A stretch of DNA of 64,000 nucleotides from a virus: positions 1 to 64,000 of the IMG/VR virus record IMGVR_UViG_3300048694_001252, one strand, 5' to 3'. Under the pieces are notes generated by a model. That model ran no database searches and had not been told where the DNA came from. It saw only the letters and a program-made list of their open reading frames with translations. A program made the translations under genes and the position numbers. This document shows, one piece after another, positions 9,490 through 27,575 of this stretch (positions within the stretch are counted from its first letter, which is position 1; every line of letters begins with the position of its first letter).

Positions 9490-10317
9490 ATGCGTATCGG
9501 TGTTTTCGATCAGTGGGGTGCCCAAAACAGCCAGTCAGTATGGCCTGCACTCTATCAGGGCATCGCAAGATTGGGTCACAGCGCAGTCAGCCATGACTGG
9601 GATGCAGACATGGCTGTGATATGGAGTCTGGTCTGGTCAGGACGCATGCGCTCAAATCAACAGGTGTGGCAGCATTATAGACAGCGCAGCCGGCCAGTCT
9701 TGGTCATAGAAGTAGGCACCTTGTGCCGTGGACATACTTGGAAACTGGGCATAAATGGCCTGGGTAGCGGGGCATTTTGGGGTCGTGAACAAGATCCACT
9801 GCGACCCCAGCGCATGGCGGTGCAACTCCGGCCCTGGCGCGAACCCGGCAGTGACGTCGTGATTGTGCTACAGCGCGATGACAGTGAGCAGTGGCAGGGA
9901 CTGCCACCCACAGCTGAGTGGCTTATGCAAGTGATTGCCAATTTGCGTCAATATACCGATAGACCCATACACATCAGGCCACATCCACGTCGAGCCACGC
10001 CCGATATTCCAGGCGTTATAGTAGACCGACCACAACGATCCGCGGGCACCTATGACGATTATGATCTGGATACCAGCCTGAGTCGGGCCTGGGCTGTGAT
10101 CAATGTCAACAGTGGTGCTGGAGTCAATGCGGTCATACGCGGCACGCCACTGTTCGCCCATGCGTCTAGCCTGGCAGCGCCCGTGGCCGGACTAGATTGG
10201 AGTCAAATTGAGCAACCGCGCAGGCCCGATCGCGACCAGTGGTTCCAGTACCTGTGTCATACCGAGTGGACTCTACCGGAAATCGCATCAGGTCAGGCCC
10301 TGACCCGATTGCTCTAG
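9490..10317 (+). CDS. Glycosyltransferase-like protein, copy 3 of a three-member family (275 aa)
   Basis: ATG 9490 (MRIGVFDQWGAQNS). Shares with the genes at 6142 and 6944: VVIVLQRDDSEQW, DRPIHIRPHPRR, AVINVNSGAGVNAVIRGTP, GLDWSQIEQPRRPDRDQW. The N-terminal domain begins like a GT-B Rossmann half. It is separated from the other two copies by the convergent GT-A pair. The stop abuts that of the dehydratase on the other strand (tail to tail, no spacer). No ribosome site was recognised upstream. Confidence 0.65.
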   Translation: MRIGVFDQWGAQNSQSVWPALYQGIARLGHSAVSHDWDADMAVIWSLVWSGRMRSNQQVWQHYRQRSRPVLVIEVGTLCRGHTWKLGINGLGSGAFWGREQDPLRPQRMAVQLRPWREPGSDVVIVLQRDDSEQWQGLPPTAEWLMQVIANLRQYTDRPIHIRPHPRRATPDIPGVIVDRPQRSAGTYDDYDLDTSLSRAWAVINVNSGAGVNAVIRGTPLFAHASSLAAPVAGLDWSQIEQPRRPDRDQWFQYLCHTEWTLPEIASGQALTRLL

Positions 10318-11787: not shown

Positions 11788-12035
11788 CAGTGATCCTGAT
11801 CCTCGTCATCAAAATCCTCATCTTCGACGTAGTCATCATCCTCGGCGTCGTCAAGGTGTGCTGCTAGAGCCTCTTTCATGTCGGGATCACTACCAAATGC
11901 CGCACGTATGTCAGCGGCATCAAGATCATGATCGATCATGACACTGAGCACCGTGTCAGCTGCTTCGGCACGATCGTGCGGATTCACATAGCGTTTGATC
12001 TCGCTCCAGATGTCGGCTACCAATTGTTCACTCAT
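11787..12035 (-). CDS. Small acidic protein between uvsX and uvsY (82 aa)
   Basis: Unknown. Residues 1-55 are helical (IWSEIKRYVNPHDRAEAADTV), residues 60-82 almost entirely Asp/Glu. A protein of this size and pattern sits between uvsX and uvsY in cyanomyoviruses. The acidic tail may mimic DNA or bind gp32/UvsY, but this is inference. Start overlaps the uvsX stop by 4 nt, so translation is coupled. Confidence 0.75.
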   Translation of the reverse strand: MSEQLVADIWSEIKRYVNPHDRAEAADTVLSVMIDHDLDAADIRAAFGSDPDMKEALAAHLDDAEDDDYVEDEDFDDEDQDH

Positions 12036-13093
12036 TCTGCTTCCTCCTCTGTGACATCGGTACTTACCTCAGTACGGAGATTTGCAAAATCTGCCATGAG
12101 TCGATCCAGACAACCTTCTTCGTTGCTTTCCCAGGCCTTGCGGAACAGTTTGGTAACTTCCCCGGTGCTACTCACAAACATCAGCCTATTGCCGTCTTTC
12201 TTGAGGATGTTTTTCTTCTCGGCCAGATCCACCAGTCCCGAGTAAGGGTTCATCCCAGTTTCGTACGGTATCTTGACCTGCACACCTTCAAAGGGTTTGG
12301 CATAGCGTGTTTTCATGACCTTGCAGGCAGCGCGGATACCCATGACATCCGAGATCTTGTTGCCATCCTCATCTTCCTTGAGCTTGAGCTTCTTCATGGC
12401 CACCACGATCGAGCTGGCATAGATAAAGCCTTGTCCGCCCGAGATCTTGTCATCGGGATCAAACATGTCTTGGCTGGCATAGGTATGGTTGGTACACACC
12501 AGGCCCACATTGTAGTTGCCAAACATGTTGACACAGTTACGAACCAGGGCCGTGAGCGCCTTGGGTTTGCGCCCAAGATCACCTTTCATGTCACCGGCTT
12601 CAAACTGGTTGATGTCCGTGGGTGTGAGCAGCATGCCCAGGCTGTCAATCACGAACAACACCTTGGGACGCTCGCCATCGGGCAGGGCCTTGTAGTCGGT
12701 CATGAATGTGCTGATGGTCTTGGCCACGTCGTCAATCATGCTCATACTAAGTTTGAGCAGTTTGCTTTCGCTGGTATCTACACCCAAGGCCGTGAGCCAG
12801 GCTTCGTCTAGTGCGTTCTCGCTGTCCACCAGCACAACAAAGATTCCCTGCTCTTGGGCGTTCTTGATAATGTTACCGGAACAGATGTAGCTCTTGCCCG
12901 CGCCTGATTCACCCGCAAACACCGCGACCTTGCCCAGCGGAATACCGCGAGTAAAGTCACCGGATATCAAGTAGTTGAGGGCGTAGTTGCCGGTCGAGAT
13001 CCAGTCTGTGGGATCATTGAAACCGATGGTGAGTCCATCGATTGATTTGGTTATTTCCTTGCGGAAACGTGAAACGTCAAAGGGTTTTCCCAT
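12032..13093 (-). CDS. uvsX: UvsX, RecA-like recombinase
   Basis: ATP-dependent strand-exchange protein driving recombination-dependent replication and repair. Walker A GESGAGKS at 61-68, Walker B VLFVIDS at 145-151, VLVDSENALDEAW carrying the catalytic Glu near 92, and the L1/L2 DNA-binding region around TNHTYASQDMFDPDDKISGG near 202-221. 353 aa, usual for T4-like UvsX. AGGTG lies before ATG 13093. First gene of the uvsX-82 aa-uvsY unit, directly after the gp32 terminator, so it relies on read-through or a promoter I cannot see. Confidence 0.95.
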   Translation of the reverse strand: MGKPFDVSRFRKEITKSIDGLTIGFNDPTDWISTGNYALNYLISGDFTRGIPLGKVAVFAGESGAGKSYICSGNIIKNAQEQGIFVVLVDSENALDEAWLTALGVDTSESKLLKLSMSMIDDVAKTISTFMTDYKALPDGERPKVLFVIDSLGMLLTPTDINQFEAGDMKGDLGRKPKALTALVRNCVNMFGNYNVGLVCTNHTYASQDMFDPDDKISGGQGFIYASSIVVAMKKLKLKEDEDGNKISDVMGIRAACKVMKTRYAKPFEGVQVKIPYETGMNPYSGLVDLAEKKNILKKDGNRLMFVSSTGEVTKLFRKAWESNEEGCLDRLMADFANLRTEVSTDVTEEEAE

Positions 13094-14301: not shown

Positions 14302-16467
14302 CTACTTTGACAAAGCTAGTGCTTTTATTCTCGCCAGATCTTCATAAAAACTATCGGTTACTGCTCCGCGGTGGTCCATGGAATCAGTTGAGTCTTCGTT
14401 TGGACCCGAAAACGTGGCCAGATTATCGCCTTCGGCCATATCTTCATCGTCATCCCAACCTTTGGCTTTGCTAGGAAAATAACGATGTACCGCTCTATCA
14501 TGACTTGGTACCAGCTTCAAGCGACTGGGAGAAATATACCAACCACGTCCATCTTTGTCTTCGATTCGAACACGACGATCATATGGATCACCAATCATTC
14601 TGAATACTTCACCGCCGTCACCATCCATTTCGTCACGTACAAAACAACCATCGTAAAGTTCAGTATCGTCGTATTCGCCTTCCGCCACACCTTGCTTCGT
14701 ACGTTTCTTAGCTTGCTGAGACCGATTATAATCATCCAGCGAAACAATTTTAAAGTTAAAAGCGTCGAGCGAATGTCTACCACCACTCATGCGAGTTAGG
14801 TACGATTTTGCGGCTGCTATTGAAGGGAACGCGCCGCCGTGCATTGGATAGTTCTGGGAACGTAATCCAGTTTTAGGGTTTACCAAAACATATCCACTGG
14901 TATCTAAATATCTTCTACTGTTTTCCTCCATATCTTTTTCTTTGGGTTTAGGTACAGGATTACCAGCTAAATCTTTGTCACCGATGTAAACTCCCCGTTC
15001 ATCATGGCTTAGCGGATTCTTTTCAAACGGTTTGCCTTTACGTGCTGCTTGGGCTGCTTCCACATCCTGCATGGCATCTTGCCAATAGCCTTCCGCCATG
15101 GGCTGCTGTGGTTGCGCAGCCGGCTGTGCCACCGGTGCAGCAGCCGGTTCAGGCGAGGGTTCTGCGGCAGGCGCGGGTTCAGGCGCGGGTTCTTGGGCTT
15201 GGGCATCAAGATCGACATCAACTCCGTTTTCTTCCAACCAGGCCTCGATCACGGGCGCGGCATCAGCATCGGCACCGTTGGAACGGCTGAGATTCTGTAG
15301 CCGGTCACGCAGATCATCCAGCATCTGATGATCCTCAGGATCATCGCGATCATAACCTATGATATCTTCCAGCTGAGGTATCACGTTCATGCCATCTTCA
15401 CCCACTGCTAGAGGTTTTTTGGCCAGCAGTTCCTGGATTTGATCCACTGCTTCATGATCATGGGCTAGGTCACTGAGACCTTCTGCCACTGTGTTGACCC
15501 AGTTTTCAAATATATCAGCTTCTTTCATGGCAGTTCCTTGAATACGTGCCAGCAAAGGCAATGCTGCCTCTACTCGCGTATCGATATGCTGCTCCACAAA
15601 CATGTCTCTGAGATTTTCTACCAGAGTATCAGCCGCAGTGATCTCAGCTGGCTGCCAGGATTCGAAATATCGACCATAACCACGACTGTGACCTAACTGC
15701 TGGAGATTGGAACGTAGCTGTTGATAGTACTCGCGGGCCTGTTCTACCAACTGTTGCCGCTGCCCTTCCAGTACCTGACCCTGGTGTGCACGATGGAATC
15801 GAGCCAGCACCTTCATTTCCTGGATTATTTCGGCTATGTGCTGACCGCGTATGTCATAGGGACGACCACCCTGGCGCACATGTTCCAGCATGGCGCGACC
15901 GCCTGCGAGATTGGTAAAAGGCAAAAGGAAGCGCTCACCATCCTGGGTTTCCACAAACAGTTTTTCCACATAGCGATAGCGAGCATCAGTTTCGCCTAGA
16001 GTGCGATTGTGTCGTATCATGAGTCGGGCCTGGGTGGGCTGTCCCATGTAGCTGACCTGGCGCGTACCATAATAACTTTCAAATAGGCTTTCCGAAATAG
16101 CCGACATGCTGGCCATGTAGTGCTTGAGATTACTGATATTTTGTGGGCTGAATGTGTTGAAGCCGTTGTGCGTGGCAAATTGTCCCAGTTGATGCAGGAA
16201 ATCATACCATTCGTCTTTGTCCCGGGGGGATTCCATGCTGCGTCCCATGCTGTCCCCAAAAAACAACAGTAATTCTTTGTCATCACTCAGGATCAACACA
16301 GCATTGCCATAATCGCGGCCACCGCTGCTGCGATAATCAAACCGTATGATATGCGCTTTTGATGGTGTGACATCTTGCCCGGTCCGGGGGTCTTTGGTAA
16401 CGGGATCAAATCCCCGAGTGACCAAAAGGTCATAAAGTCTTTGGGCTACTGTTTGTGTTTGTGCCAT
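14302..16467 (-). CDS. Large modular protein with prohead-protease-like sites (721 aa)
   Basis: Function unknown. Residues 1-360 form a folded part (DYRSSGGRDYGNAVLILS; later LARFHRAHQGQV helices). Residues about 385-425 are acidic, about 426-455 a Pro/Ala linker (PAPEPAPAAEPSPEP), then three C-terminal modules, each preceded by an AEG motif: PMAEG (E459), QGVAEG (E596), DMAEG (E679). These fit the T4 prohead-protease rule (hydrophobic-x-E before a small residue); ISES near residue 115 also fits. The last modules are more AT-rich than the front. Late box 7 nt before ATG 16467; lies directly downstream of the large terminase. I infer a virion or prohead protein cut during maturation. Confidence 0.7.
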   Translation of the reverse strand: MAQTQTVAQRLYDLLVTRGFDPVTKDPRTGQDVTPSKAHIIRFDYRSSGGRDYGNAVLILSDDKELLLFFGDSMGRSMESPRDKDEWYDFLHQLGQFATHNGFNTFSPQNISNLKHYMASMSAISESLFESYYGTRQVSYMGQPTQARLMIRHNRTLGETDARYRYVEKLFVETQDGERFLLPFTNLAGGRAMLEHVRQGGRPYDIRGQHIAEIIQEMKVLARFHRAHQGQVLEGQRQQLVEQAREYYQQLRSNLQQLGHSRGYGRYFESWQPAEITAADTLVENLRDMFVEQHIDTRVEAALPLLARIQGTAMKEADIFENWVNTVAEGLSDLAHDHEAVDQIQELLAKKPLAVGEDGMNVIPQLEDIIGYDRDDPEDHQMLDDLRDRLQNLSRSNGADADAAPVIEAWLEENGVDVDLDAQAQEPAPEPAPAAEPSPEPAAAPVAQPAAQPQQPMAEGYWQDAMQDVEAAQAARKGKPFEKNPLSHDERGVYIGDKDLAGNPVPKPKEKDMEENSRRYLDTSGYVLVNPKTGLRSQNYPMHGGAFPSIAAAKSYLTRMSGGRHSLDAFNFKIVSLDDYNRSQQAKKRTKQGVAEGEYDDTELYDGCFVRDEMDGDGGEVFRMIGDPYDRRVRIEDKDGRGWYISPSRLKLVPSHDRAVHRYFPSKAKGWDDDEDMAEGDNLATFSGPNEDSTDSMDHRGAVTDSFYEDLARIKALALSK
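14677..14694 (-). repeat. GVAEG-encoding 18-nt repeat, copy 1
   Basis: CAAGGTGTGGCGGAAGGC on the minus strand, encoding QGVAEG inside the 721-aa protein. Identical to the copy at 24565. Confidence 0.8.
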
Positions 16468-16474
16468 AGTAAGC

Positions 16475-16480
16475 TATTTA
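16475..16480 (-). promoter_or_regulatory. Late-promoter box TAAATA (short-gap type)
   Basis: GCTAAATAGC on the minus strand, 7 nt before ATG 16467 and overlapping the stop of the large terminase gene. No ribosome site between box and ATG. Confidence 0.6.
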
Positions 16481-18049
16481 GCGTAAAACTGCAAAGAAGG
16501 GCATGGGTTCAATTATGGAATCAGTATGATCCTTGATCTGTTGATCCAACTCAGCATGGTAGGTCTGTAACAGCATCAACATTCGTACGATCAGGATGGT
16601 AGACATGACCAAATCATCGGTTTCACCCGGCTTGGCTGCATAGCTCACACCGTGCGCCACAAAGGTCTTGAGCTCGCTTATGAGTGGTTTGCTGTGTATG
16701 ATCATGCGACGACTTTCCAGCAGCACCTTGAACTTGTTACAGGCCGTGATCTTGCTCTTGGGCGTGGTGTTGAATCCTTTGCGCCATCGACGTTGTCCTA
16801 TCACGGAATTGTCCGATAAGAAATAGCCCTGGATGTTTTCCTCACCGTATTCCGATATCGAGATCAGGGCCGCTTCGCCTATGGTGTTGTTTTCCACGGA
16901 GTAATAGATGCTCTGCGGATCCTTGACCACGCTGTTGATTTCACGCACGATGTCGGCCAAGATACGTACTTGTTCGGGGATGGTAGTACGATTATGTTGC
17001 CACTCGGCCACTTGTTCGGTGGTGCCGGCTTCAAATACCTGGATGGCCGCGGGATCTCCACCGGTGCCCAGGCTGGGATCCAAGGACACCACATAGATGC
17101 TGTTGGGGCGTATGTCACGATACCAACGAACCTGCCCGGTTTTGCGCAGGGGTTCGCGACCTTCTAGATCGATCAAGGTAGTGGGTGCTATCAAGGTCTC
17201 ATCGTTGATGATGAATTCGCACTGCATTTCGCGACGGAATCGATCGTCGCCCAGCTGGGCACGTTGTTCATCGGCCCAGGCCTGATCACGATCGGGATGC
17301 TCATGCCAATAACTCCGGAAAGCCCGGAAACCATTGATACCCAGTTCCGTGGTATTGCCAAACTCATCTAGGCATTTGTTGGCACCTTTCCACAGGAACG
17401 CAAACTGATCTTCATCCGAATTGGGTGTGCTGGTAATGATACATTTACCGCCTGTGGATAGCGTGGGCGCTATGGAAGTCCAGAATTCTCGACCTATGGT
17501 GGGACGCACGAATGCGAACTCGTCAGCATACAGTAAAGAAATACTCATACCCCGACCTGTGGTCTCTGTGGTTGTTTGGCTTACTATGCGGCTACCGTTT
17601 TCAAATTCCAGGCTGCCCTTGTTGTAGCTGGTACAACCGGCTCGTATATGGTTTGGGCACAGCTCATAGGCATAGCGTATGCGCTGCATGATTTCCTGAG
17701 CACCGGTATACTTGTGAGCCGCTATCAAGATCGTGCTGTCCGGAACGAACATGGCGTACCAGAGCAGATATCCCGCGGCCGAAGTTGACTTGCCGGTCTG
17801 GCGCGGCATGAGGCTGATGCTGTTGCGATAGTTGTGATATGTGTCGATCAGACGCTTCTGATAATCAAACGGATGATATACCATCTTGCCCCGGGTAGGA
17901 TGCTGGATGTAGAAGAAGTTGTCCAGGAAATACTGTGGACCGGTCACCGGATCGGCGCAGAGAGCAAATTCTTGAATCTCTTGTTCGGTATATCTTTCGC
18001 GGCGATGCGGACTTTTTACCAGTACTGTTTCAAGTTGGTTGCGTTGCAT
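16478..18049 (-). CDS. 17: Terminase large subunit (gp17)
   Basis: Motor ATPase and headful nuclease that packages DNA into the prohead. Walker A MPRQTGKST at 81-89, Walker B SLLYADE at 171-177, coupling motif ITSTPN near 205-210, nuclease-domain Asp in VVSLDPSLG (D324), and later YYSVENNTIGEA and PGETDDLVMS acidic residues of the RNase H-like site. 523 aa, shorter than T4 gp17 (610 aa) but typical for cyanophage-type enzymes. Late box 4 nt before ATG 18049. Partner is the small subunit at 28.2-28.7 kb. Confidence 0.96.
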   Translation of the reverse strand: MQRNQLETVLVKSPHRRERYTEQEIQEFALCADPVTGPQYFLDNFFYIQHPTRGKMVYHPFDYQKRLIDTYHNYRNSISLMPRQTGKSTSAAGYLLWYAMFVPDSTILIAAHKYTGAQEIMQRIRYAYELCPNHIRAGCTSYNKGSLEFENGSRIVSQTTTETTGRGMSISLLYADEFAFVRPTIGREFWTSIAPTLSTGGKCIITSTPNSDEDQFAFLWKGANKCLDEFGNTTELGINGFRAFRSYWHEHPDRDQAWADEQRAQLGDDRFRREMQCEFIINDETLIAPTTLIDLEGREPLRKTGQVRWYRDIRPNSIYVVSLDPSLGTGGDPAAIQVFEAGTTEQVAEWQHNRTTIPEQVRILADIVREINSVVKDPQSIYYSVENNTIGEAALISISEYGEENIQGYFLSDNSVIGQRRWRKGFNTTPKSKITACNKFKVLLESRRMIIHSKPLISELKTFVAHGVSYAAKPGETDDLVMSTILIVRMLMLLQTYHAELDQQIKDHTDSIIEPMPFFAVLR

Positions 18050-18053
18050 CTAG

Positions 18054-18059
18054 TATTTA
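18054..18059 (-). promoter_or_regulatory. Late-promoter box TAAATA (short-gap type)
   Basis: AGTAAATACT on the minus strand, ending 4 nt before ATG 18049 of the terminase gene, in the short gap after the nuclease gene. Part of the palindrome CTAGTAAATACTAG. Confidence 0.6.
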
Positions 18060-18066
18060 CTAGCAG

Positions 18067-18771
18067 CTATCTAAACGCGAAACGAAATCCCGTGGCCTGT
18101 TCCACCGCTTCCACCGTGACCTGATAGCGTGGCAGATCGGCCACGGGCAATGCGGTGTTGGGCAGCAGATAGGCCACGGTCTGGCCATTGGCTCGGTTGT
18201 GCAGGATCTTGTACAAGCGTGTGGGTATGCCCAGACCGTTGCCAGTTACCGGATGTCCAGCATCAAAGATGCCGCCCGAAATTACATACCAATCCCCGCC
18301 CTTCTCGGCCCAATCCCGCTCCCAGGTCTCCAGCTGTTTCCAGATTCCGCGGTTGTTGTTGGCCACCTGTGCCACCATGTTTGACAGGAAGAAACTCTCA
18401 CTCATGATCTGGTCGTTCTGGGTATTGTTGCCCGCGGGAGCCATGTGACCTCGGTCGTGTGTTTTGCCCACTGTGGCATAGTCGGCCAAGGTGGCCTGGC
18501 AGTTGGCTGTAACGGCCGGATCGGCACGGAAGTTGTCTTTACGCTTGGCCGGACCGGTCATTGCGGCCACTGTTAGATGTTCAAACACTGCCACAGGTGC
18601 TTTCACACTGCAACGATGGATCACGGCATAATTGGTTTTACACAGTTCTTGATCTCCCGGCTGTGCTTGATAAGCCGGTGTGCCATGGCTGGTAAATTGC
18701 GGGCATTGGCTGTTGATCTGTGCCCATGAGCTAAGAGGCACACACAATAAAAAGAATAGTATTTTTTTCAT
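18067..18771 (-). CDS. Secreted DNA/RNA non-specific endonuclease (NucA/EndoG family)
   Basis: Metal-dependent nuclease cutting DNA and RNA. The family signature DRGHMAPAGNN is at 106-116 (H109 general base), with SESFFLSNMVAQ and NRGIWKQLE following (the metal-binding Asn is normally in this stretch). ATG 18771 opens a clear signal peptide MKKILFFLLCVPLSSWAQ with a cleavage site after about residue 17. The cysteines after it could form disulfides. An upstream ATG at 18786 is possible but would spoil the signal peptide start. It lies between the terminase and a fibre-like gene, in late orientation. Export suggests an extracellular or periplasmic role such as degrading host or competing DNA. 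Confidence 0.9.
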   Translation of the reverse strand: MKKILFFLLCVPLSSWAQINSQCPQFTSHGTPAYQAQPGDQELCKTNYAVIHRCSVKAPVAVFEHLTVAAMTGPAKRKDNFRADPAVTANCQATLADYATVGKTHDRGHMAPAGNNTQNDQIMSESFFLSNMVAQVANNNRGIWKQLETWERDWAEKGGDWYVISGGIFDAGHPVTGNGLGIPTRLYKILHNRANGQTVAYLLPNTALPVADLPRYQVTVEAVEQATGFRFAFR

Positions 18772-18789
18772 AGTTCGATCTTTCATAGT

Positions 18790-20697
18790 TTAGTCCACCA
18801 GCCAGGCCAATCCAACTGTGGTTGAGTTGAATGATTGTGAGCAACTTATAAAAATACTAATAGTTTCTCCGGGTGCCAACACAAAGTTATAGGGCAGCAA
18901 GTTGAATTGAGCACCACCGTTGACCCCCACAGTCTGTACCAGTACAATCTGATCCGATGCCAAGGTTTCTGTAACTGCACTGGTGCTTATCTGCGCAAAG
19001 TTGAACGCAGTGGCACTGGGCTGCGGACTGAACACCAACAAGTCGCTGGTGCCTACTGCATTTTTGATCATATAAATCACAGCAGGATCGGTGCTTTTGA
19101 GACCCACTGACATGTCTTGTAATACCAAACTGCTCTTGTTGACCATACCGTTTCGCACAAAAGGATTTTGCACACTGAGAAAATGCCATACTGTGTCTTT
19201 GGCTTTGGTCGCGCCATCAAGAGCATAAAAACTTTGACTTGAATTTGTTTGTCTAATCTGACCCTGTATGCCGGTCATGATACTGGCGCCTGTGACGACT
19301 ACATTTTGACTGGGTGTGGCACCCGAGGTGGTTCCTGACCTATAAACAATACGCAAACTGGGTTTTCTAATGTGTGGTGCTGGATTGTTACCATCAGCAT
19401 CGGTCCATCGCTGGGTGTGCATCAAGGTCATCTGACCTGTGGCAGGATCTTCCATGAACAATCGCACGATACCTGCGCCCAACCAACGGAAATCCACTGC
19501 CCACACATTGAGTTTGGTTGGATCAAAGCTCACATTCTGATTGTCCCATTGATCCACATAGGTCCATGTGTCAGTGGGTGTGGCACCTGCTTGTGTTTGT
19601 GAAAATGTACCAGCTGCTGCGGTGCCAGTGCCTGTGCTGGAAAAACTGTATGTTCCAGATTTGGCACCTGGTGAGTAGTATGTGAATGTCACTGTGCTGC
19701 CACAGGCATCGATATCCCAAAGATTGTTGGGGACTGTCTGTGCTTTTAGTAATTTGGCAATTTGTGCGGCACAATAAGCTGTGCTGGAGCTGGTGGCCAG
19801 GCTTACTGTGTAAGCAGAACCATCGAGAGTGATGGTAGCAGTTTGAGCACCAGTGTTTTGTTGTGTTATGGTCAGTGTTTGTATTTCGGTCTTGCCACCT
19901 AATCTGTGCAAGAAGCCAATCTTCTGCGCACGGTTAGAATTTGCAGTGCTGGTGCTGCCGCTGTAACCTATGGCATAGCCATCTTCGCGGTCGATGGGTC
20001 CAGTGGTTTGCACTATGTTTGCTACTCCTAGACCATTTTTGTTTGTGGCATTGGCTGTAAAGGCCGCGGTCCAGCGGAACATGGATCCTTGGCCAGGTTG
20101 ATACGTCATGTATCTAGAAGTTGCCAACCTAGCATAACCACCAGGTGACGTTCCTGAATTTACCTGCCATGTGCTCACACTGCTGAGCACAACATTACCA
20201 TTGCTGAGTTGAGTGGTGCTCCAAATATCTGGATCCAATCCATAAACTCCATCAGCTTGTATCACTGGAGTTATGGTGATGGCCAAAGGTTCTTGGAATG
20301 CAGTTTTTTCTGCTGGATCAACTGTGGTGGTAATGTTACCACTGCTGACCGTGACATTTCCACTGACTGACCATGGAGTGGTTCCTTGTGTGACGTTTAC
20401 GTTGCCCAAGATTCCCACATTGCCACTGACGTTGGCATTTCCAAGAATGCCCACATTGCCTTGCACAGTGACATTGCTGGTGATGCCTGCGATGTTGCCG
20501 GTGACACTCACTGGCATGTAAGTATGGCTGAGATCTATGTTGCCCAGTGAACCAATGGCCACATTGCCCACTGACACATTGCCTGCGAGTACACTGTTGG
20601 TGCGCAGGAACACATTGCCCGTGGCCGAATCCAGCTCTAGAGCCTGCGTGATGTTGCGCAAATACCAGGGTGCCACTTGAGATGGGTTTGGTTCCAT
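18790..20697 (-). CDS. Fibre/virion surface protein with GNV repeats (635 aa)
   Basis: Residues 35-130 are beta-helix-like GN-V repeats (GNVSVGNVAIGSLGN, GNVGILGNANVSGNV). From about 160 comes a domain with WSTTQLSNGNVVLSSVSTW and YMTYQPGQGSMFRWTAAF, typical of a virion adhesin module that I have seen in large aquatic phages and viruses, then SYTVSLAT.../TYSFSSTGTGTAAAGTF and a beta-sandwich C terminus. No enzyme motif. ATG 20697 shares one base with the previous stop; a TAAATA box lies 40 nt upstream with a small GC hairpin between. Likely on the outside of the particle; exact position unknown. Confidence 0.7.
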   Translation of the reverse strand: MEPNPSQVAPWYLRNITQALELDSATGNVFLRTNSVLAGNVSVGNVAIGSLGNIDLSHTYMPVSVTGNIAGITSNVTVQGNVGILGNANVSGNVGILGNVNVTQGTTPWSVSGNVTVSSGNITTTVDPAEKTAFQEPLAITITPVIQADGVYGLDPDIWSTTQLSNGNVVLSSVSTWQVNSGTSPGGYARLATSRYMTYQPGQGSMFRWTAAFTANATNKNGLGVANIVQTTGPIDREDGYAIGYSGSTSTANSNRAQKIGFLHRLGGKTEIQTLTITQQNTGAQTATITLDGSAYTVSLATSSSTAYCAAQIAKLLKAQTVPNNLWDIDACGSTVTFTYYSPGAKSGTYSFSSTGTGTAAAGTFSQTQAGATPTDTWTYVDQWDNQNVSFDPTKLNVWAVDFRWLGAGIVRLFMEDPATGQMTLMHTQRWTDADGNNPAPHIRKPSLRIVYRSGTTSGATPSQNVVVTGASIMTGIQGQIRQTNSSQSFYALDGATKAKDTVWHFLSVQNPFVRNGMVNKSSLVLQDMSVGLKSTDPAVIYMIKNAVGTSDLLVFSPQPSATAFNFAQISTSAVTETLASDQIVLVQTVGVNGGAQFNLLPYNFVLAPGETISIFISCSQSFNSTTVGLAWLVD

Positions 20698-21077
20698 TAT
20701 CTAGGATATCCAGAAAATGCCCGTAGCGGGCTTTGACTATTTACCAAATTGGGTTCTTGGCTGGTACGGGTAGAGATCAACTGTTTGCCGCCCGGTGTGT
20801 CGGTCATGGCCAAGGCACGATCTATGATCTTTTCTACGTTGTCGTTGAAACCCACGACCATGGCGTTTTGTCCCACAGTGATCGTGGGAAATTCTTCCGA
20901 ATCCTGCACATATCCCCCGGCTTCGGCTCGAGCTCGCGCCATGGCCACGCCCAGGCGCATGGTATGATAGGCATCGTTGTTGCGTATGCCAGGCAATCGA
21001 TAGGCATGCTGCATGGGTTCGGCCACTTCGGCTGGCAAACGTTCCAGCTGTTCCATGACAAATTCTCGTGCTCTCAT
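20697..21077 (-). CDS. Putative head-internal protein, MRAREF family (126 aa)
   Basis: Begins MRAREFVMEQL and ends SPLRAFSGYPR. The N-terminal decapeptide resembles the T4 capsid-targeting sequence (MKTYQEFIAE), with V-M-E before Q as possible processing site. Core: DAYHTMRLGVAMARARAEAGG and IIDRALAMTDTPGG; similar core in the next gene upstream (QYRFGVAIAQAKGR, WIDEALKAIGQSPS). ATG overlaps the upstream stop (ATGA). Fourth and last of the family. Function unknown; packaging into the head is inference. Confidence 0.65.
   Translation of the reverse strand: MRAREFVMEQLERLPAEVAEPMQHAYRLPGIRNNDAYHTMRLGVAMARARAEAGGYVQDSEEFPTITVGQNAMVVGFNDNVEKIIDRALAMTDTPGGKQLISTRTSQEPNLVNSQSPLRAFSGYPR
20738..20743 (-). 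promoter_or_regulatory. Late-promoter box TAAATA
   Basis: GGTAAATAGT on the minus strand inside the end of the 126-aa gene, 40 nt before ATG 20697. The presumed leader holds the hairpin GCCCG-CTA-CGGGC (20731-20719), which also encodes the conserved SPLRAF end. Confidence 0.55.
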
Positions 21078-21472
21078 CGTGAGTATCCCGCAAACGGTCG
21101 CAAGGGACTGGTCTTGTCCACATCATCAGCTTCTTCACTGGTTGCTGTGCTGATCAGACGCTTGTCACTGGGACTCTGTCCTATGGCCTTGAGAGCTTCG
21201 TCGATCCAGTCTTCGATGTCGGGGTCAAAACTCACAACCACTTGGTTTTCACCCCAGGCGCTGCGCGGTGCGAAATCATGCACAGTACCTTCGCCGGCCT
21301 GTTCACGACCACGGCGTCCCTTGGCCTGGGCTATGGCCACCCCAAATCTGTATTGCTCATAGGGGTCTTGATTTTGCAGTTTGGTCAACACATACGTGGC
21401 CGGCAGGGCCCGAGCCACATCATCCTGGAGGCTACCCACGCGAGATTCGGCTACAAATTCACGCGCTCTCAT
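21074..21472 (-). CDS. Putative head-internal protein, MRAREF family (132 aa)
   Basis: Begins MRAREFVAESRVG and ends SPLRPFAGYSR. VAE before S fits a prohead-protease cut after residue 9. Middle part (DPYEQYRFGVAIAQAKGRRGRE, SFDPDIEDWIDEALKAIGQ) is homologous to the gene at 20697. Its last codons (GCGGGATACTCACG) supply the GGA ribosome site for the next MRAREF gene, whose ATG overlaps the stop. Function unknown. Confidence 0.65.
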   Translation of the reverse strand: MRAREFVAESRVGSLQDDVARALPATYVLTKLQNQDPYEQYRFGVAIAQAKGRRGREQAGEGTVHDFAPRSAWGENQVVVSFDPDIEDWIDEALKAIGQSPSDKRLISTATSEEADDVDKTSPLRPFAGYSR

Positions 21473-21867
21473 CGTGCGTATCCTGCAAAAGGTCGTACAG
21501 GACTGTTTCGGTGCACATAATCAGGTTCACGGCTGCGATTGTCCGTGAGTTTGTTCACGCGACCTGCCTGCACCATCTGGGCGGCAGCATTGATGATTTC
21601 CATGTCAACATCACTATAACAGGCCAACAGGGGATCGCCCGCAAAGGCGCCCGCAGGTGGCGTAGGGTAATCGGGTGCACCGGCCATGGCGATACTGAAT
21701 CGCCACTGGGTATAGGGACTGCCGCCCTGCTTGTTGCTGCTGATATCGGGCATGCTGATCGCGCCCTTGATAGTTGTACGGTGCGAATGCGGCAGTTTGC
21801 GAGAGCTGGCCGGCACATCTGCGGCTCTACCGTAGCGTGTTTCTGTTACAAATTCTCGTGCTCTCAT
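21469..21867 (-). CDS. Putative head-internal protein, MRAREF family (132 aa)
   Basis: Begins MRAREFVTETRYGR, ends SPVRPFAGYAR. Middle (SPYTQWRFSIAMAGAPDYP, VDMEIINAAAQMVQAG) has the same pattern as the two downstream copies (Y-x-x-R-x-x-x-A-x-A, then D-x-x-x-E/D-x-I-x-x-A), so all share one fold. Preceded by GGAG within the hydrolase end. Likely packaged in the head and trimmed after VTE; inference from the N terminus. Confidence 0.65.
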   Translation of the reverse strand: MRAREFVTETRYGRAADVPASSRKLPHSHRTTIKGAISMPDISSNKQGGSPYTQWRFSIAMAGAPDYPTPPAGAFAGDPLLACYSDVDMEIINAAAQMVQAGRVNKLTDNRSREPDYVHRNSPVRPFAGYAR

Positions 21868-22745
21868 TTGCCATCATCTCCTAGATGCATGTGACTGAAG
21901 GGTTTGGTACCGCGATTCTTCTGCCATAGCAGTCTATTACTTAGTATTTCGACCCAGACATTGGTATCAGGACGATTCAAGCGCCAGAAATCAAACTCGA
22001 TATGGCTGCTGACCGGACGACAGTAGAGAGTACGCTCCCGGGGCACACATAGCTGCTGGCTGGTGGTGCGAAATTTCTTGGGTTCGGTACTGTATCGCAT
22101 GATGTTCAGCTGCGGGTTTGGGATGTTGATCTGGCACATGCCATCCACGAGATCCTGGGGAGTACGGGCGTCACGTACCACCTGTTGAGCCTGTAGCAGT
22201 CGAGCTCGACTGCTTATGCGATCCTGGGTCTCTTGCGTGTTTTTGGCGTTGTTTTGGAATCCGGCCCAGGGCAGCCAGATGCCGTGATTGGTACGAGCCA
22301 CCAGTTGCGTGTGCGGAATCAATTTTACTTTAGATCTATAGGGTCTACGTCCATCTTGATCGCCGGCTTCTATGAGATACAGTGTTTCTTGATCAAACAC
22401 CATGGTGCAGCCACCCAGCTTTCCCTGGATCAGGACGTCAACTGCGGGTTTGACTTCGCGCTCGAGCAAGGCCCGAGCAATCAAGCGACCATCCGGGCTG
22501 GTATCGGCTTCACCTTGTTCAATGGCTCGTTCGTCTGTGTACACATCCAGGCTGGTATTGAGTATGCTGATGCCCTGACTGTTGATACCTTCTTTGTAGC
22601 CGGTCACACGATCATGCATCATCATGCGTGACACGCCCCGCTCGGTACTTTCGATAAAGTCCAGGCGCGGTACGTAGTTACGATCTCGATTCTTGGCCCC
22701 GGCCCACCCAATCCCGGGAAAGTATCGGGCCACGATTATGCACAT
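21864..22745 (-). CDS. N-terminal-nucleophile hydrolase-like protein with Cys2 (293 aa)
   Basis: Starts MCIIVARYFPGIGW: Cys at position 2 would become the N-terminal nucleophile after Met removal, as in choloylglycine hydrolase, penicillin V acylase and acyltransferase-type Ntn hydrolases. Supporting motifs in order: KNRDRNY near 18-24 (the conserved Arg-Asp), GINSQGISILNTS near 53-65, a Phe/Tyr-rich LYLIEAGD strand, and ARTNHG near 149-154 (conserved Asn). Such enzymes cut linear amides. It sits among the putative head-internal proteins, stop-start overlapped with one, so it may be packaged with them or simply late-expressed. Substrate unknown. Confidence 0.72.
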   Translation of the reverse strand: MCIIVARYFPGIGWAGAKNRDRNYVPRLDFIESTERGVSRMMMHDRVTGYKEGINSQGISILNTSLDVYTDERAIEQGEADTSPDGRLIARALLEREVKPAVDVLIQGKLGGCTMVFDQETLYLIEAGDQDGRRPYRSKVKLIPHTQLVARTNHGIWLPWAGFQNNAKNTQETQDRISSRARLLQAQQVVRDARTPQDLVDGMCQINIPNPQLNIMRYSTEPKKFRTTSQQLCVPRERTLYCRPVSSHIEFDFWRLNRPDTNVWVEILSNRLLWQKNRGTKPFSHMHLGDDGK

Positions 22746-22747
22746 GG

Positions 22748-23128
22748 CTAGCGCCCATATCCGGCAAAAGGTTTTACCGGACTCTGTACCTGCACATCCG
22801 ACGTTTCACGACTGCCTTTGCTCACGTAATCATGCGGCTTCATTTTCAAATGCTTCATGATGGCCATGAGCTTTTCACGGTCATAGTCGGTATAGGCGCT
22901 GAACAGTGGTAGATTGCCGCAGAAACTCAGCTGATCAAGTTCTTTGAGCTTTTTGGGATCCATGCCGGCCAAGGAACTCACACGATAAAAATCATAATAG
23001 CGACCCCAGTATACGTCGCCCGATCCCGAAGGTGCTACCAGACCGGGATGCGCGGTTTCAAATTCCGGTGCGGCCGCTGTTCTGCTACCGCCCCGAGGCG
23101 ATTCAGTAATGAACTCGCGGGCGCGCAC
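22748..23128 (-). CDS. Putative head-internal protein, MRAREF family, GTG start (126 aa)
   Basis: The frame is open further upstream, but GTG 23128 gives the family start (M)RAREFITESPRGG, 2 nt after the previous stop; I chose it by homology. Ends SPVKPFAGYGR. ITE before S is the best processing-site match of the family. The core (YWGRYYDFYRVSSLAGMDP, FSAYTDYDREKLMAIMKHL) differs from the other three, so the shared ends enclose an unrelated middle. Confidence 0.68.
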   Translation of the reverse strand: MRAREFITESPRGGSRTAAAPEFETAHPGLVAPSGSGDVYWGRYYDFYRVSSLAGMDPKKLKELDQLSFCGNLPLFSAYTDYDREKLMAIMKHLKMKPHDYVSKGSRETSDVQVQSPVKPFAGYGR

Positions 23129-23130
23129 AA

Positions 23131-23424
23131 TCAGTAGCTTCCCAGGCCGATCACACCTGCTGTGGCCGAACTGGCTGTGCCCAGTTCCAGGGCCGTCCAG
23201 TTGCTGCCGGTTATGGTCACATGATTGCCTGCGCCTGAATAGAGATCTCGCGTGGCATTTGCCGGCACCTGTATGGCCGCGCTGTAGATGTTGCCCACAG
23301 GTGAGGCCGATCCCAGGGCCACGGCATAGACCTGATAGGTCACTGCGGTGTTTCCGGTACTCACACGCAGCTTGTCGGTGTACACTGCGGCGTTGCCCAG
23401 ACTGGTATAGACATTGGCGCTCAT
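23131..23424 (-). CDS. Small beta-rich virion-like protein (97 aa)
   Basis: Unknown. Begins MSANVYTSLGNAAVYTDKLRV; small, Ala/Gly/Ser/Thr-rich with alternating hydrophobic residues (VTYQVYAVALGSASPVGNIYSAAI, ALELGTASSATAGVIGLGSY), as in small phage decoration or structural proteins. Start overlaps the stop of the 59-aa gene (ATGA). No motif allows a function. Confidence 0.6.
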   Translation of the reverse strand: MSANVYTSLGNAAVYTDKLRVSTGNTAVTYQVYAVALGSASPVGNIYSAAIQVPANATRDLYSGAGNHVTITGSNWTALELGTASSATAGVIGLGSY

Positions 23425-23600
23425 TTGTGATTATCCTTGTTAGTGGTTCCGGTATAGGGTTGATACAGTTTACGGGTCTGGTCCAGCACACCTGGGATGT
23501 CTACCGGTTGTGGTTGTGCAACCGGGGCTACCGGTACTGTGCGGAAAAGATCCCGGGGCTGATTGTTTTCAAAATTCATACGGATTCGATCTATAGTCAT
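23421..23600 (-). CDS. Small unknown protein (59 aa)
   Basis: ATG 23600 (MTIDRIRMNFENNQPRDLF) lies 4 nt after the 650-aa gene's stop with GGTGA upstream; a longer frame reaching 23750 would lie inside that gene. Pro/Val-rich middle (VPVAPVAQPQPVDIPG) and basic tail. Function unknown. Confidence 0.55.
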   Translation of the reverse strand: MTIDRIRMNFENNQPRDLFRTVPVAPVAQPQPVDIPGVLDQTRKLYQPYTGTTNKDNHK

Positions 23601-23604
23601 GATA

Positions 23605-25557
23605 TCACCAGGCTCGGCAGCTCCAATATCTGGCTTTCCAACGCGGACCAGGATTGGCACAGTTGTGGCGGGCCCGGAAGCTCTTGCGGCGTTTTGGGTT
23701 GGATTTTTTGATGCGCATCTTCTTGTCACCAAAGTTGACCTTGACCACATTGCCTTTGGGACCTTTCACATACACTTTGCTTTTCTTTACATCTCCGGCC
23801 ATGGGCTTGCCCAGGGGTACTTCACGTCCTTGGTATTTGGCTTCCATGGGTGCAGGATCATCTACGTCGTATGGATCTTCCGCATTGTGCTGTTTAGCGT
23901 CACGTGAGTCCCACTGTGCTTGTGCATCCTGTTCAGCAGCCTGCTGATATTCTGGGCTGTAGTCTGGATCAGTGATTAGATACTGAATCATGTGATCGTC
24001 AACTTTAGCAGCAATATTGTTACCAGTTACGTCACCACCAGTTAGTTTAACATGTAAATGTCCGGTTTGTGGATCAGGTGTAGCGATATAATTTACATAT
24101 CCTTCTACTTCTTCACCATCGTCACCAATCCAGGTAACATCTGTGCTGCCTTCAAAACTTTCAGGATCGAATCCTTCGTTTTGCAGATGTTCCTCCACGG
24201 TTTCGGACAAGGGTGTGGTCTGAGGTTCTAGACCAGCCAATTCTTGTATGCGGCGCAGGGTTTGATCCGCTTCCGCCACACCTTGCTCTTGGCTCTCACC
24301 AAAACGAAACTTAGGGGCGGCACGTAACAACATTGCCACACCTTTATCAAATTTTGCGCGGTCGTAAAATTTCCCGTTGTTGATACTGGCTAAAATCGTT
24401 TTGACGCCAGGTATTCCCAGTAGTTGATTGGACATAAAATATGTTCTGCCACCTGCGGCCGCATCAACTAAATCCAACAAATCTTCGGGGTAAAGACGAT
24501 CTTCATTTTTTGGTGATCCATATTTGGCCCAGATTTTTTCTGCGATACGTTTTGCTTGCGAAGAGCCTTCCGCCACACCTTGTTCTCTATATTTCTTGGC
24601 GACATCTATTTCAATATCACCGTTGCCATTGCGCTCACTCCAGGCTGCAAATCGTTTTCCGTTGATAGTAACCAATTCACCACTTGCATTGGAAATATAT
24701 TCTGCATTGTCATCTAGCAACTCACGGTTAACACGATTTACATCACGCAACCACTTTTCATGGTTTCCGTAGGTCTCAAATCTTTTCTGCAATAAATCTC
24801 TAGTATCAACTGATGGCAAATTTACTCCAGAACGTGGCCCAAGCATATAATCGCTGGAACTTAAACTACCTGGCAAGCCTGCCTCCGCTACACCTTGCTC
24901 ATTGACATTATCTCTGACATATAATGTATCTTTGGGGAATTTTGCGATCCACTTAGCACCGGCTGGAGTTATCTTGTAAATCCCATCCAACGATGAGATT
25001 ATACCCTTTTTTACTAATTTTGGTAGGAATCTTTCCAGGAAATCTCTTTTGATAAACACATTGCCATGAAGCGCACTGGCTAATTTACGTCCAGACAATC
25101 CAGAATCTTCGACCTGCTGTAACTGTAGTAACGTTCTTGCGACATCTTTTCGATTGAACGTATGTTGAAACTTGCCTTCCGCCACACCTTTGACATGCCA
25201 AGTTTTATGGCATTGATGGCATTCTTTCTCACCATCACTGTAGGTTTTGATGTCGGTACTGTAACAGCCTGGGCAATGTGTACTGGTGGTGGGTTTGGCA
25301 CCGGTACCTGACTTTGTCTTGGGTTCTGGTTCGTTCTTTTGATCTTGGGCCATGCCTTGCTCTTCCAGCAGTCCATAGCTTTCCAAGATCCGCATCATGT
25401 CTTCGTCTGCGGCCAAGACCACACCATCTTCCACAACGTCAACTATGTGTGACTCTACCAGGCATTCTTCACGGATGTTTATGGCAAAGTCATCACCCAC
25501 GGCCGGTGCTGCGACCCAGGATTCTGCTTCGTTGATATGGTCTCGCAGTGTTTTCAT
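23605..25557 (-). CDS. Putative head-internal polyprotein with four GVAE sites (650 aa)
   Basis: Starts MKTLRDHINEAE, a close analogue of the T4 capsid-targeting peptide with the cut I-N-E/A. Four GVAE motifs follow, at E127/G, E225/A, E330/G and E429/A, spaced 98-105 residues, each fitting the prohead-protease rule. Segments: 11-127 with a zinc ribbon (C95, C98, C113, C116); 128-225 winged-helix-like (LLQLQQVEDSGLSGRKLASAL); 226-330; 331-429; 430-650 beginning RRIQELAGL and ending in a conserved basic domain (YQGREVPLGKPMAGDVKKSK ... FRARHNCANPGPRWKARYW). Segments 2-4 look AT-richer. I infer a precursor packaged in the prohead and cut into five products; function of products unknown. Confidence 0.75.
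   Translation of the reverse strand: MKTLRDHINEAESWVAAPAVGDDFAINIREECLVESHIVDVVEDGVVLAADEDMMRILESYGLLEEQGMAQDQKNEPEPKTKSGTGAKPTTSTHCPGCYSTDIKTYSDGEKECHQCHKTWHVKGVAEGKFQHTFNRKDVARTLLQLQQVEDSGLSGRKLASALHGNVFIKRDFLERFLPKLVKKGIISSLDGIYKITPAGAKWIAKFPKDTLYVRDNVNEQGVAEAGLPGSLSSSDYMLGPRSGVNLPSVDTRDLLQKRFETYGNHEKWLRDVNRVNRELLDDNAEYISNASGELVTINGKRFAAWSERNGNGDIEIDVAKKYREQGVAEGSSQAKRIAEKIWAKYGSPKNEDRLYPEDLLDLVDAAAGGRTYFMSNQLLGIPGVKTILASINNGKFYDRAKFDKGVAMLLRAAPKFRFGESQEQGVAEADQTLRRIQELAGLEPQTTPLSETVEEHLQNEGFDPESFEGSTDVTWIGDDGEEVEGYVNYIATPDPQTGHLHVKLTGGDVTGNNIAAKVDDHMIQYLITDPDYSPEYQQAAEQDAQAQWDSRDAKQHNAEDPYDVDDPAPMEAKYQGREVPLGKPMAGDVKKSKVYVKGPKGNVVKVNFGDKKMRIKKSNPKRRKSFRARHNCANPGPRWKARYWSCRAW
24268..24285 (-). 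repeat. GVAE-encoding 18-nt repeat, copy 2
   Basis: CAAGGTGTGGCGGAAGCG, one base from copies 1 and 3 except the last codon; encodes QGVAEA at residues 425-430 of the 650-aa protein. Confidence 0.8.
24565..24582 (-). repeat. GVAE-encoding 18-nt repeat, copy 3
   Basis: CAAGGTGTGGCGGAAGGC, identical to copy 1 in a different gene 10 kb away; encodes QGVAEG at residues 326-331. Confidence 0.8.
24880..24897 (-). repeat. GVAE-encoding 18-nt repeat, copy 4
   Basis: CAAGGTGTAGCGGAGGCA; encodes QGVAEA at residues 221-226. Differences are at third codon positions plus the last codon. Confidence 0.75.
25174..25191 (-). repeat. GVAE-encoding 18-nt repeat, copy 5
   Basis: AAAGGTGTGGCGGAAGGC; encodes KGVAEG at residues 123-128, directly after the zinc ribbon. 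Confidence 0.8.
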
Positions 25558-25559
25558 GG

Positions 25560-27575
25560 TTAGGCCTTATATGCTTTCCACAAGCGAGTCATGTCCTGGA
25601 GACTGGACTCAAACGCTTGATTTTCTTTATTGCTGCTGAGTTTATCCTGTAGGGCCTTTCCCGCCATCTGACCTGCCAGGCTTGCAGCACCTCGTGTCAG
25701 TGCACTGGCACCGGATCCCACGGCAGTGCGAGCTAGAGCAGCACCAATAGCCGGTAACACTTCGTCTAGTTTTTGGTCTTTTTCTGCTGCGGCTTGTGTC
25801 ATGGGCTCTTCCCGATCACCATCTTGGTCGATGTCCAAGAAATCGGGTTTAGCAGCTTCCTGCACCCCGGCCAGTTCCCGGATACGCTCCAGGCTTTCGT
25901 CCATGGGCCGATCACATTCGCATTTGCTTTCGTACATGCCACATTCCATGCATTTGTTTTCGTCGAGATCTTCGGTTTCCTGCACACGCACCGCAGTGGT
26001 AGGCATCACGGTCTGACCATCGCCAGCAACATCAGTCTTGGGTTTGTTGACACCACCTGAGTATTGCAGGGCATCGGAGTTTGTTTCGGTGTTGGTGGGC
26101 CATTCCGGTTGATTTTCATCTACCTGCGTGGCACAGGCACAGGGCTCTTGACCACAGCTGGGGCAGGCATGTGAATCCGGGGTGTGCGGCATGACCCCCA
26201 CACCAGCACGTTTTAGGAGCTCAATCAAATCACCTGCATCTTCTTCGGTGGCTGTGACTGTGACTGAATCATTGCCTTCGCTACTGCGGCTGATGTTTAC
26301 GCTCATGCTTTCAGAGATCATGGCTTCCAGTTCACGGTTCATGCTGTCATAGATGCCTTTACCATACTGCATTTTACCACCCGGAGATTTCTTGGGGACA
26401 TCCGCGGATTCTGACTTGGCTCGCGGTGCCGGGGCTGTCGCGACCGATCCCGCTACTGTGGAAGTTTCTTCCACTTCTTTTTTCTTGGTGGGCAGACCTT
26501 TTTCTTTGGTAGCAGCAAACTTATGCAGTTCCTTCTTGCTCATCTTGGCCATCTCTCGGCTGGCACCGCGTAGTTCGGATTTGGGGATTTCACCCTTCTG
26601 TGCCGCATGTGCGATGCCGGCAGCGCGACGCTGGGCCACGCTCACGGCTTTTTCACCCAGTGGTTGTTCCTGGCCCTCTTCACCAGTGGCCATTTCCCCA
26701 TCACGTTCGTGTTGGGTCTGCATGTAATCATCCACAGTGGACATCATGCCTTCGATCTTGGTCAACTTCATTTGTACCCATTCAGGCAAATCCTCGCGAT
26801 CGGCCAGGATCTTTTCCAGGGCCTGGGCATGACGCACGATAGTATGGATCTGATCCTTGGCTTGATCGCCTTCGTTGCCGTATTCGCCCGCATCATCAGG
26901 CTGGGCTCCGGGTGGTAGCTCCTCAGCTATGGCGCCTTTGCGATGCAGCTTGGATGTGCCCTTGACCTTGGCTCCGATTTTTTTGCCCCGGCCGGCACCC
27001 ACGGCCTTGCGGCCCATATGACGTGGCTCACCGTCGTCTTGGTCATCGGCATCGGGTTCATCTGTCTGGCTCGCGCCACCATAGCGTTTGCCCTGCACTG
27101 ATTTTACCGGCAGATCGGCCAGTTTGAGTTCTTCGACTTTATGGGTGGCAGGCTTTTTCTTGGTTGTCTTTTTGACTACCTGCAGCACACCCTTGGCATC
27201 ACGCCGGAGAGTTTCTTGGCCACCAGATGCTTTTTCCACTGCACGGGTCAGATCGGGTGCTAGATCTCGACCACTGACCTTGGTCTTGGCCTTGGGCGGT
27301 TGGTTGAACGAAGAAGATTTACGCACACCAAACTTGTCATAGTCATCGCTGCTGAAGGGTTTTGGTTTGCCTTCCTCCACACCTTGCTTGGCCTGGCGAG
27401 CCGCTTGCTTCATGGGTTCGTGGCGATTGCCATCTTGGTCCAGATCCAAAAAATCAGGCTTGGCCGCTTCGCCTACTTTGTGGCGCAGTTTGTCCAACAC
27501 AGCACCTTCTGTGAGCTGTTCCTTGCCTTGGGCCAGTTTGGCCAACTTTTTGTTCATGTCGTAAAAAAATGTCAT
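25560..27575 (-). CDS. Putative head-internal modular protein with Ca/Zn-like motifs (671 aa)
   Basis: N terminus has QLTEG (E23) and VGEA (E36), both fitting prohead-protease sites, then QGVEEG (E68), MISES (E422) and VQEA (E573). A DxDxDG loop (EF-hand or dockerin-like) occurs twice in a duplicated segment, EAAKPDFLD-x-DQDG at 36-49 and 573-586. Two CxxC...CxC clusters (471-481 and 542-553) could bind zinc. Residues 95-220 are Lys/Arg-rich, fitting DNA contact; 605-645 is Ala/Gly-rich and could be membrane-active (LPAIGAALARTAVGSGASAL). Coupled to its neighbours by 2-nt gaps. I infer a head-internal precursor; function unknown. Confidence 0.7.
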   Translation of the reverse strand: MTFFYDMNKKLAKLAQGKEQLTEGAVLDKLRHKVGEAAKPDFLDLDQDGNRHEPMKQAARQAKQGVEEGKPKPFSSDDYDKFGVRKSSSFNQPPKAKTKVSGRDLAPDLTRAVEKASGGQETLRRDAKGVLQVVKKTTKKKPATHKVEELKLADLPVKSVQGKRYGGASQTDEPDADDQDDGEPRHMGRKAVGAGRGKKIGAKVKGTSKLHRKGAIAEELPPGAQPDDAGEYGNEGDQAKDQIHTIVRHAQALEKILADREDLPEWVQMKLTKIEGMMSTVDDYMQTQHERDGEMATGEEGQEQPLGEKAVSVAQRRAAGIAHAAQKGEIPKSELRGASREMAKMSKKELHKFAATKEKGLPTKKKEVEETSTVAGSVATAPAPRAKSESADVPKKSPGGKMQYGKGIYDSMNRELEAMISESMSVNISRSSEGNDSVTVTATEEDAGDLIELLKRAGVGVMPHTPDSHACPSCGQEPCACATQVDENQPEWPTNTETNSDALQYSGGVNKPKTDVAGDGQTVMPTTAVRVQETEDLDENKCMECGMYESKCECDRPMDESLERIRELAGVQEAAKPDFLDIDQDGDREEPMTQAAAEKDQKLDEVLPAIGAALARTAVGSGASALTRGAASLAGQMAGKALQDKLSSNKENQAFESSLQDMTRLWKAYKA
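27369..27386 (-). repeat. GVAE-encoding 18-nt repeat, copy 6 (variant)
   Basis: CAAGGTGTGGAGGAAGGC; one base from copies 1 and 3, changing Ala to Glu (QGVEEG at residues 64-69 of the 671-aa protein). Confidence 0.75.

Follow-up and report, generated by a model that had tools for sequence, protein, structure and literature searches.

A short in-frame DNA sequence shared among phages flanks exchangeable cassettes in putative head-internal polyproteins

The stretch of DNA analyzed here (the window, positions 1-64,000 of the 115-kb viral record IMGVR_UViG_3300048694_001252) raises the question of why one short sequence recurs, nearly unchanged and in frame, inside several different protein-coding genes. 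We searched for this boundary sequence as an 18-mer, a 17-mer, a 16-base part and a 15-nt core. The 18-mer occurs in the window five times with at most three changes, all on the minus strand (shuffled sequences give 0.04), and a sixth copy is more diverged, with two changes in its 16-base part. These six in-frame copies are spread over open reading frames (ORFs) of 721, 650 and 671 amino acids (aa), exactly as an earlier note on this DNA had claimed; the first two ORFs are hereafter denoted carrier 1 and carrier 2 (Table 1). A seventh, decayed copy encodes GMAQ in place of GVAE. The further claim that the copies separate unrelated modules holds fully for carrier 2, in which three mutually unrelated modules of 98, 105 and 99 aa lie between copies, but not for carrier 1 and the 671-aa ORF, each of which contains a single copy. 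Judging from the sequence comparisons described below, we consider it likely that these genes encode polyproteins with a swappable payload that would be packaged into the prohead and cut at the linkers.

The DNA of the boundary is conserved more strictly than the encoded protein requires. In 229 copies that had not been used for retrieval, the boundary Val is encoded by GTG in 82% of the cases (24% elsewhere in the same ORFs), the Ala by GCG in 84% (11% elsewhere) and the Gly by GGT in 94% (45% elsewhere). Q, E and K (NAA codons) predominate immediately before the core, and G, A, D, E and V (GNN codons) immediately after it, so that the conserved DNA crosses codon borders. When all synonymous codings were scanned, GGTGTGGCG accounted for 55 of the 74 matches from loci below 48% guanine plus cytosine (GC) and for none of the 14 matches from GC-richer loci, most of which look chance-like.

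A scan of IMG/VR with the exact 17-mer CAAGGTGTGGCGGAAGG yielded at least 120 stretches, and all 163 exact matches are in the GVAE frame. With up to two changes allowed, the 15-nt core AAGGTGTGGCGGAAG is in frame in 587 of its 589 occurrences in approximately 200 loci, and in 15 large core-bearing records it was found 62 times (one change allowed), compared to a single occurrence of the backward control. The core is sharply delimited at 15 nt, and its flanks are unrelated in sequence. The core-bearing records with a terminase that were retrieved here fall into one clade, with 62-92% terminase identity to the window (62-79% for the large records with a full-length terminase); the window terminase is 52% identical to those of PA5oct-like jumbo phages. 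Thus, the core carriers appear to form a single, predominantly AT-rich clade of large T4-like phages whose records reach 374 kb. No convincing match was detected among 50,697 phage records, which gave only short, chance-level ones, and no cultured phage searched contains the core. In 257 Gb of cellular genomes, the 18-mer produced 26 single matches, none of them in a stretch below 50% GC, which we attribute to chance. The confinement to one clade is what would be expected if the uniformity of the DNA merely reflected recent common descent of a widespread, functionless insert. This explanation is highly improbable, given that the core remains the same in phages of about 36 to 52% GC, with unrelated flanks and among 254 module families (see below), and that the silent-site divergence in the core, which should equal that of the flanks under common descent, shows the opposite.

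The boundary is also constrained as protein. In the one-change copies, 72 of the changes within the four codons are synonymous and 33 are not, against 10 and 26 possible changes, respectively; all substitution counts given here come from a variant search bounded at two changes. Of the approximately 340 changes found in copies that differ at one or two positions, only four affect positions 1 and 2 of the Glu codon or position 2 of the Val codon, changes at the other boundary residues are tolerated, and Gly and Ala vary more than Glu and the hydrophobic residue; hence hydrophobic-x-Glu is what is kept. The T4 prohead protease gp21 cuts after L/I-x-E (PMC9026906). The suggestion of the earlier note that V-A-E fits this rule is compatible with the retention of hydrophobic-x-E, with the qualification that Val would require a slightly broader specificity than that of the T4 enzyme. 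The N-terminal sites of the clade itself suggest such a specificity, the residue two positions before Glu being I in 100, L in 42 and V in 35 of 179 unique N-terminal starts. The additional candidate sites listed in that note (HINE/A, QLTE/G, MISE/S and PMAE/G) are all present in the translations of the window.

A signal at the RNA level, such as an internal ribosome-binding site from which each module is started, would account for the purine-rich, somewhat Shine-Dalgarno-like GGAAGG, but not for selection on the identity of Glu and Val, and appears scarcely conceivable. We considered internal starts after the core and rejected them: in-frame ATG occurs at 1.0-2.6% per position over eight codons against a background of 2.6%, with no enrichment.

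Several observations strongly suggest that the carriers are head-internal proteins and the boundaries protease-type sites. Core-bearing ORFs often start with sequences such as MRAQEFVAE/A, MKPSEILTE/A and MRFSEIISE/A, which closely resemble the start of the precursor of T4 internal protein (IP) II, MKTYQEFIAE/A, the ten-residue leader of which is annotated as removed. A loose pattern resembling a capsid-targeting sequence (CTS) is matched by 52% of the core ORFs compared to 22% of the other ORFs in the same loci (P 4e-12), and many of the latter matches look like real targeted proteins as well. The homolog of carrier 1 in PA5oct is annotated as a structural protein (electrospray ionization tandem mass spectrometry, ESI-MS/MS), and the carrier 1 homolog sits in the terminase locus in 80 of 80 relatives. 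The genome to which the window belongs encodes a gp21-family protease (PF03420, E 2e-24; phrog_207, head maturation protease; the head protease of the clade is located at G000 76805-77449), and the record additionally encodes a T4-type major head protein, a portal and a single-strand binding protein.

We also noted a motif common to several C-termini, which reads ARIKSLALLK on carrier 1 (14302-14331; homologs L237-L313) and I-x-x-LAG(L/V/M) in other proteins, including VIELKRLAGL at the end of a putative scaffold (L209, 11700-11729). This motif is perhaps a second prohead-core signal.

Comparison of related loci shows in-frame exchange of cassettes, conserved as DNA, between phages. Splitting 236 ORFs at the boundaries gave 355 internal cassettes with a median length of 79 aa that form 254 families, of which 61 are multi-member. 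Neighbors differ within a family (the largest, with 13 members, has 8 types of left-hand and 9 types of right-hand neighbors), and a given family can be found in carrier 1 as well as in carrier 2 (L100 and L058; L241). Thus, the recurrence of one module in other orders and between different neighbors in metagenomic phages, which the earlier note had proposed to look for, was found, and its prediction of in-frame swapping is borne out by relatives in which entire cassettes differ and homology breaks off at the core. Specifically, carrier 1 consists of a conserved N-terminal part, a variable middle and a conserved tail ending in ARIKALALSK, and L128, a 78% relative, shares the N-terminal part and the tail but carries other cassettes between them; the boundary copy of carrier 1 is the right edge of the replaced segment, with homology resuming at the core (window position 14697). 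The relatives L248 and L257 each contain one extra cassette (213 and 276 nt) between two boundaries where L258 has a single boundary, the flanks of the differing cassette being 84-90% identical, and L100 contains an exact 201-nt tandem duplicate of a cassette. In carrier 2, the homology of module M2 to L356 (24565-24798) begins at the core, and no relatives of M3 were detected among the fetched loci. The region with the decayed boundary is homologous to a zinc-ribbon cassette that has intact QGVAEG and KGVAEG on either side in L064. Core-free homologs of carrier 2 start from 150 aa (L242, without cassettes), with 172 aa in L058.

Mapping of homology breaks on all loci was noisy and was replaced by alignments of carrier 1 only, in which 26 of 217 breaks fall within 8 nt of a core (7.0 expected at random, with a maximum of 16 in 1000 randomizations) and a break is present at 16 of 24 cores. 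On the terminase tree of 81 phages, the presence of the core in carrier 1 implies at least 12 gains or losses.

The earlier note had also taken the AT-richness of the modules as a sign of import. Within the window, the difference is clear, the modules having 40.5, 42.2 and 44.8% GC against 51.9% for the window as a whole and 45.3% for the lowest 1% of 300-nt segments of neighboring genes; the cassette segment of carrier 1 has 44.8% GC compared to 52.1% in the N-terminal part of that carrier. Among 141 ORFs elsewhere, the mean difference is -0.5 points (P = 0.22), and we reject the use of low GC to infer import in general, considering it specific to this GC-richer phage.

A module family with the motif GGNYLYHAT is represented by a stand-alone gene in L350 (3001-3564) and by a boundary-flanked cassette in L344 and L345 (from 3001), so cassettes and free genes may interconvert. 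A possible assignment of the YHAT cassette to ADP-ribosyltransferases was not supported by PDB sequences or Pfam, and structure predictions for this family (pLDDT 46) and for the 650-aa protein (pLDDT 36) were of too low confidence and were not used.

The exact tandem duplicate and the single-cassette differences among relatives, together with a sharp 15-nt core devoid of conserved flanks, could be attributed to a dedicated enzyme (a site-specific recombinase, a homing endonuclease or a transposon-like system) that recognizes the core, with the encoded peptide being incidental. We consider this very unlikely: a pure DNA site would not be expected to show a strong preference for synonymous changes or to occur almost exclusively in frame, and 55 of the 80 carrier 1 homologs lack the core, some of these being mosaic as well. 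Moreover, no recombinase or nuclease domain was found among the Pfam matches of the 36 core ORFs scanned, although the genomes as wholes were not screened for recombinases.

Pfam matches include a Pol-beta nucleotidyltransferase cassette (E 9e-9) and, among the 36 core ORFs, GNAT, ParB_N, 5'-nucleotidase (NT5C) and SutA RNAP-binding (SutA-RBD) domains, but no peptidase family. Going by these matches, some of the cassettes are small enzymes or binding domains. Among the ejected proteins of T4, IPI inhibits a restriction enzyme, and RNA polymerase is modified by Alt (PMC9026906).

Taking these observations together, we propose the following model of a payload polyprotein. A conserved carrier frame, often with a targeting peptide ending in [ILV]-x-E, would receive cassettes of mostly 50-130 aa, each typically ending in (Q/E/K)GVAE and joined to the next one by the core. 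Comparison of loci shows gain, loss and duplication of cassettes as well as their exchange between phages and between carrier genes, in frame and with breaks enriched at the core. The core would serve as a short homology linker for a phage recombinase or for strand annealing, and the UvsX-like recombinase encoded in the window is a candidate executor of the exchanges; we propose that the core DNA stays uniform because exchanges use and copy the linker. The core would also encode a gp21-type site, such that the polyprotein, targeted to the prohead core, is cut into small proteins. We infer cutting at the boundaries, ejection and a role in counter-defense: the products, which are probably injected, would leave the head together with the DNA, as Alt and IPI of T4 do, to act on the host or its defenses, and the fast turnover of cassettes would reflect conflict with the host. 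We further lean, if only slightly, towards the view that the 15 nt are selected as a dual-code linker, that is, both as a recombination junction and as a protease site, which would allow open-ended arrays of injected proteins to be drawn from a clade-wide cassette pool. Such a linker would make for a cassette system that operates at the level of the polypeptide rather than the gene.

Several findings weigh against cutting in the prohead and exchange at the core. Carrier 1 lacks a CTS-like start. A PF03420 match is present in just 7 of the 15 other large core-bearing records; of the eight records without one, six lack a terminase as well and may be incomplete, but a single record of 343 kb encodes a terminase and yields no match to the protease. 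As noted above, gp21 of T4 is described as cutting after L/I-x-E and the boundary is mostly V-x-E; the residue after the boundary Glu is sometimes D, E or V, and [ILVM]-x-E is not clearly depleted inside the modules (z 0.1, or z -2.1 when G/A/S/D follows). Furthermore, 191 of the 217 homology breaks are located away from any core, and most modules contain no known domain. Alternatively, the core could be a recombination linker alone and the fused proteins uncut multidomain virion proteins, comparable to the N4 virion RNA polymerase or to polyvalent proteins. Conservation at the DNA level alone requires no protease, and polyvalent phage proteins are described as often packaged as multidomain chains, with the N4 polymerase remaining uncut (PMC5512222). 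Nevertheless, Glu and the hydrophobic residue two positions before it are nearly invariant, sites of this type also terminate the N-terminal targeting peptides of the clade, and the protease is present in the genome, which makes an uncut linker unlikely.

The predicted polyproteins share with T4 IPI, IPII, IPIII and Alt a targeting peptide of the form M-(R/K)-x-x-x-(F/I/L)-(I/L/V)-x-E, a gp21-family protease and the character of small variable head proteins; among relatives of T4, there is little conservation of the IP sets (PMC9026906). Unlike the T4 IPs, which are encoded by separate genes and cut once at the N-terminus, the chains described here contain many modules, each with a putative site, and the DNA of the site is nearly identical across phages. 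With polyvalent proteins (Iyer et al. 2017, PMC5512222), they share the mosaic organization, a putatively multidomain make-up and the GNAT, ParB and nucleotidyltransferase domains. Many polyvalent proteins are predicted to be packaged and injected, and embedded peptidase domains are stressed for release (about 36% of the proteins have a zincin-like one, which is not obligatory), but no repeated boundary sequence is named in the searched passages of that study, in contrast to the separate head protease and conserved DNA linker in the present case. Multiple prohead-protease cuts are also made in SPN3US and phiKZ-type giant phages, in which several internal proteins are processed and individual propeptides contain several sites (PMC10052503). 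The additional cuts in these phages serve to remove propeptides, and neither a cassette array nor a DNA-conserved site is described. The idea that phage mosaicism arises when homologous recombination takes place at short sequences conserved between modules is cited in PMC3029335; in the present case, the boundary is intragenic, coding, in frame and repeated in arrays. A search of the open-access literature revealed no description of this core, of the cassettes or of such a prohead polyprotein system, and a paper search with GVAEG yielded nothing relevant. The new point is the use of one short sequence at two levels, and there is a real chance that the system deserves a class of its own.

To our knowledge, conserved boundary sequences have long been debated as a source of phage mosaicism and have usually not been found. 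If the model is correct, this would be a clear case of mosaicism through a conserved boundary sequence, making the idea directly testable, and would explain how some phages keep renewing their sets of injected proteins. A single 15-nt string is a handle for pulling hundreds of small putative injected proteins from metagenomes, some of which could inhibit bacterial defenses or serve host takeover.

Table 1. Boundary copies, carrier genes, modules and relevant neighboring genes in the window
Feature	Coordinates	Strand	Remarks
Boundary core, QGVAEG	14677-14694	minus	carrier 1; exact (0 changes)
Boundary core, QGVAEA	24268-24285	minus	carrier 2; 2 changes
Boundary core, QGVAEG	24565-24582	minus	carrier 2; exact (0 changes)
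Boundary core, QGVAEA	24880-24897	minus	carrier 2; most diverged of the six
Boundary core, KGVAEG	25174-25191	minus	carrier 2; 1 change
Decayed boundary, QGMAQD	25342-25359	minus	carrier 2; Glu lost
Boundary core, QGVEEG	27369-27386	minus	near N-terminus of 671-aa ORF; 1 change
Carrier 1, 721 aa	14302-16467	minus	directly downstream of terminase gene; phrog_13484 virion structural protein, E 1e-11
Carrier 1 cassette segment, aa 460-596	14680-15090	minus	different module set in relative L128
Carrier 2, 650 aa	23605-25557	minus	capsid-targeting-like start MKTLRDHINE/A, cassettes, C-terminal HVA1-like domain
Module M1, 98 aa	24883-25176	minus	weak winged-helix match, HTH_45, E 0.0016, below cut-off
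Module M2, 105 aa	24568-24882	minus	relatives in L086, L021 and L356 with other neighbors
Module M3, 99 aa	24271-24567	minus	delimited by boundary copies on either side
671-aa ORF	25560-27575	minus	same class as carriers; DUF3008 domain, aa 310-365
Terminase large subunit	16478-18049	minus	clade marker; phrog_36964, E 4.5e-115
UvsX-like recombinase	12032-13093	minus	phrog_97, E 2.2e-65

Other components of this genome neighborhood include a DNA/RNA non-specific endonuclease (Endonuclease_NS, E 2.4e-37) with a signal-peptide-like start, encoded on the minus strand at 18067-18786, where it separates the terminase gene from the cassette genes. Four tandem related small ORFs (20697-23491, minus strand) with MRAREFV/I starts and endings like SPVRPFAGYAR are probably targeted internal proteins multiplied by duplication. 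Very long collagen-like repeat proteins of the GTTGxQG type are encoded at 51707-59083 and 59136-62243 on the minus strand and are possibly virion or tail-fiber proteins. Finally, the region at 1-11286, beside the structural block, contains, judged by eye, a dehydratase-like (sugar-nucleotide) ORF (10318-11286) and several glycosyltransferase-like ORFs.
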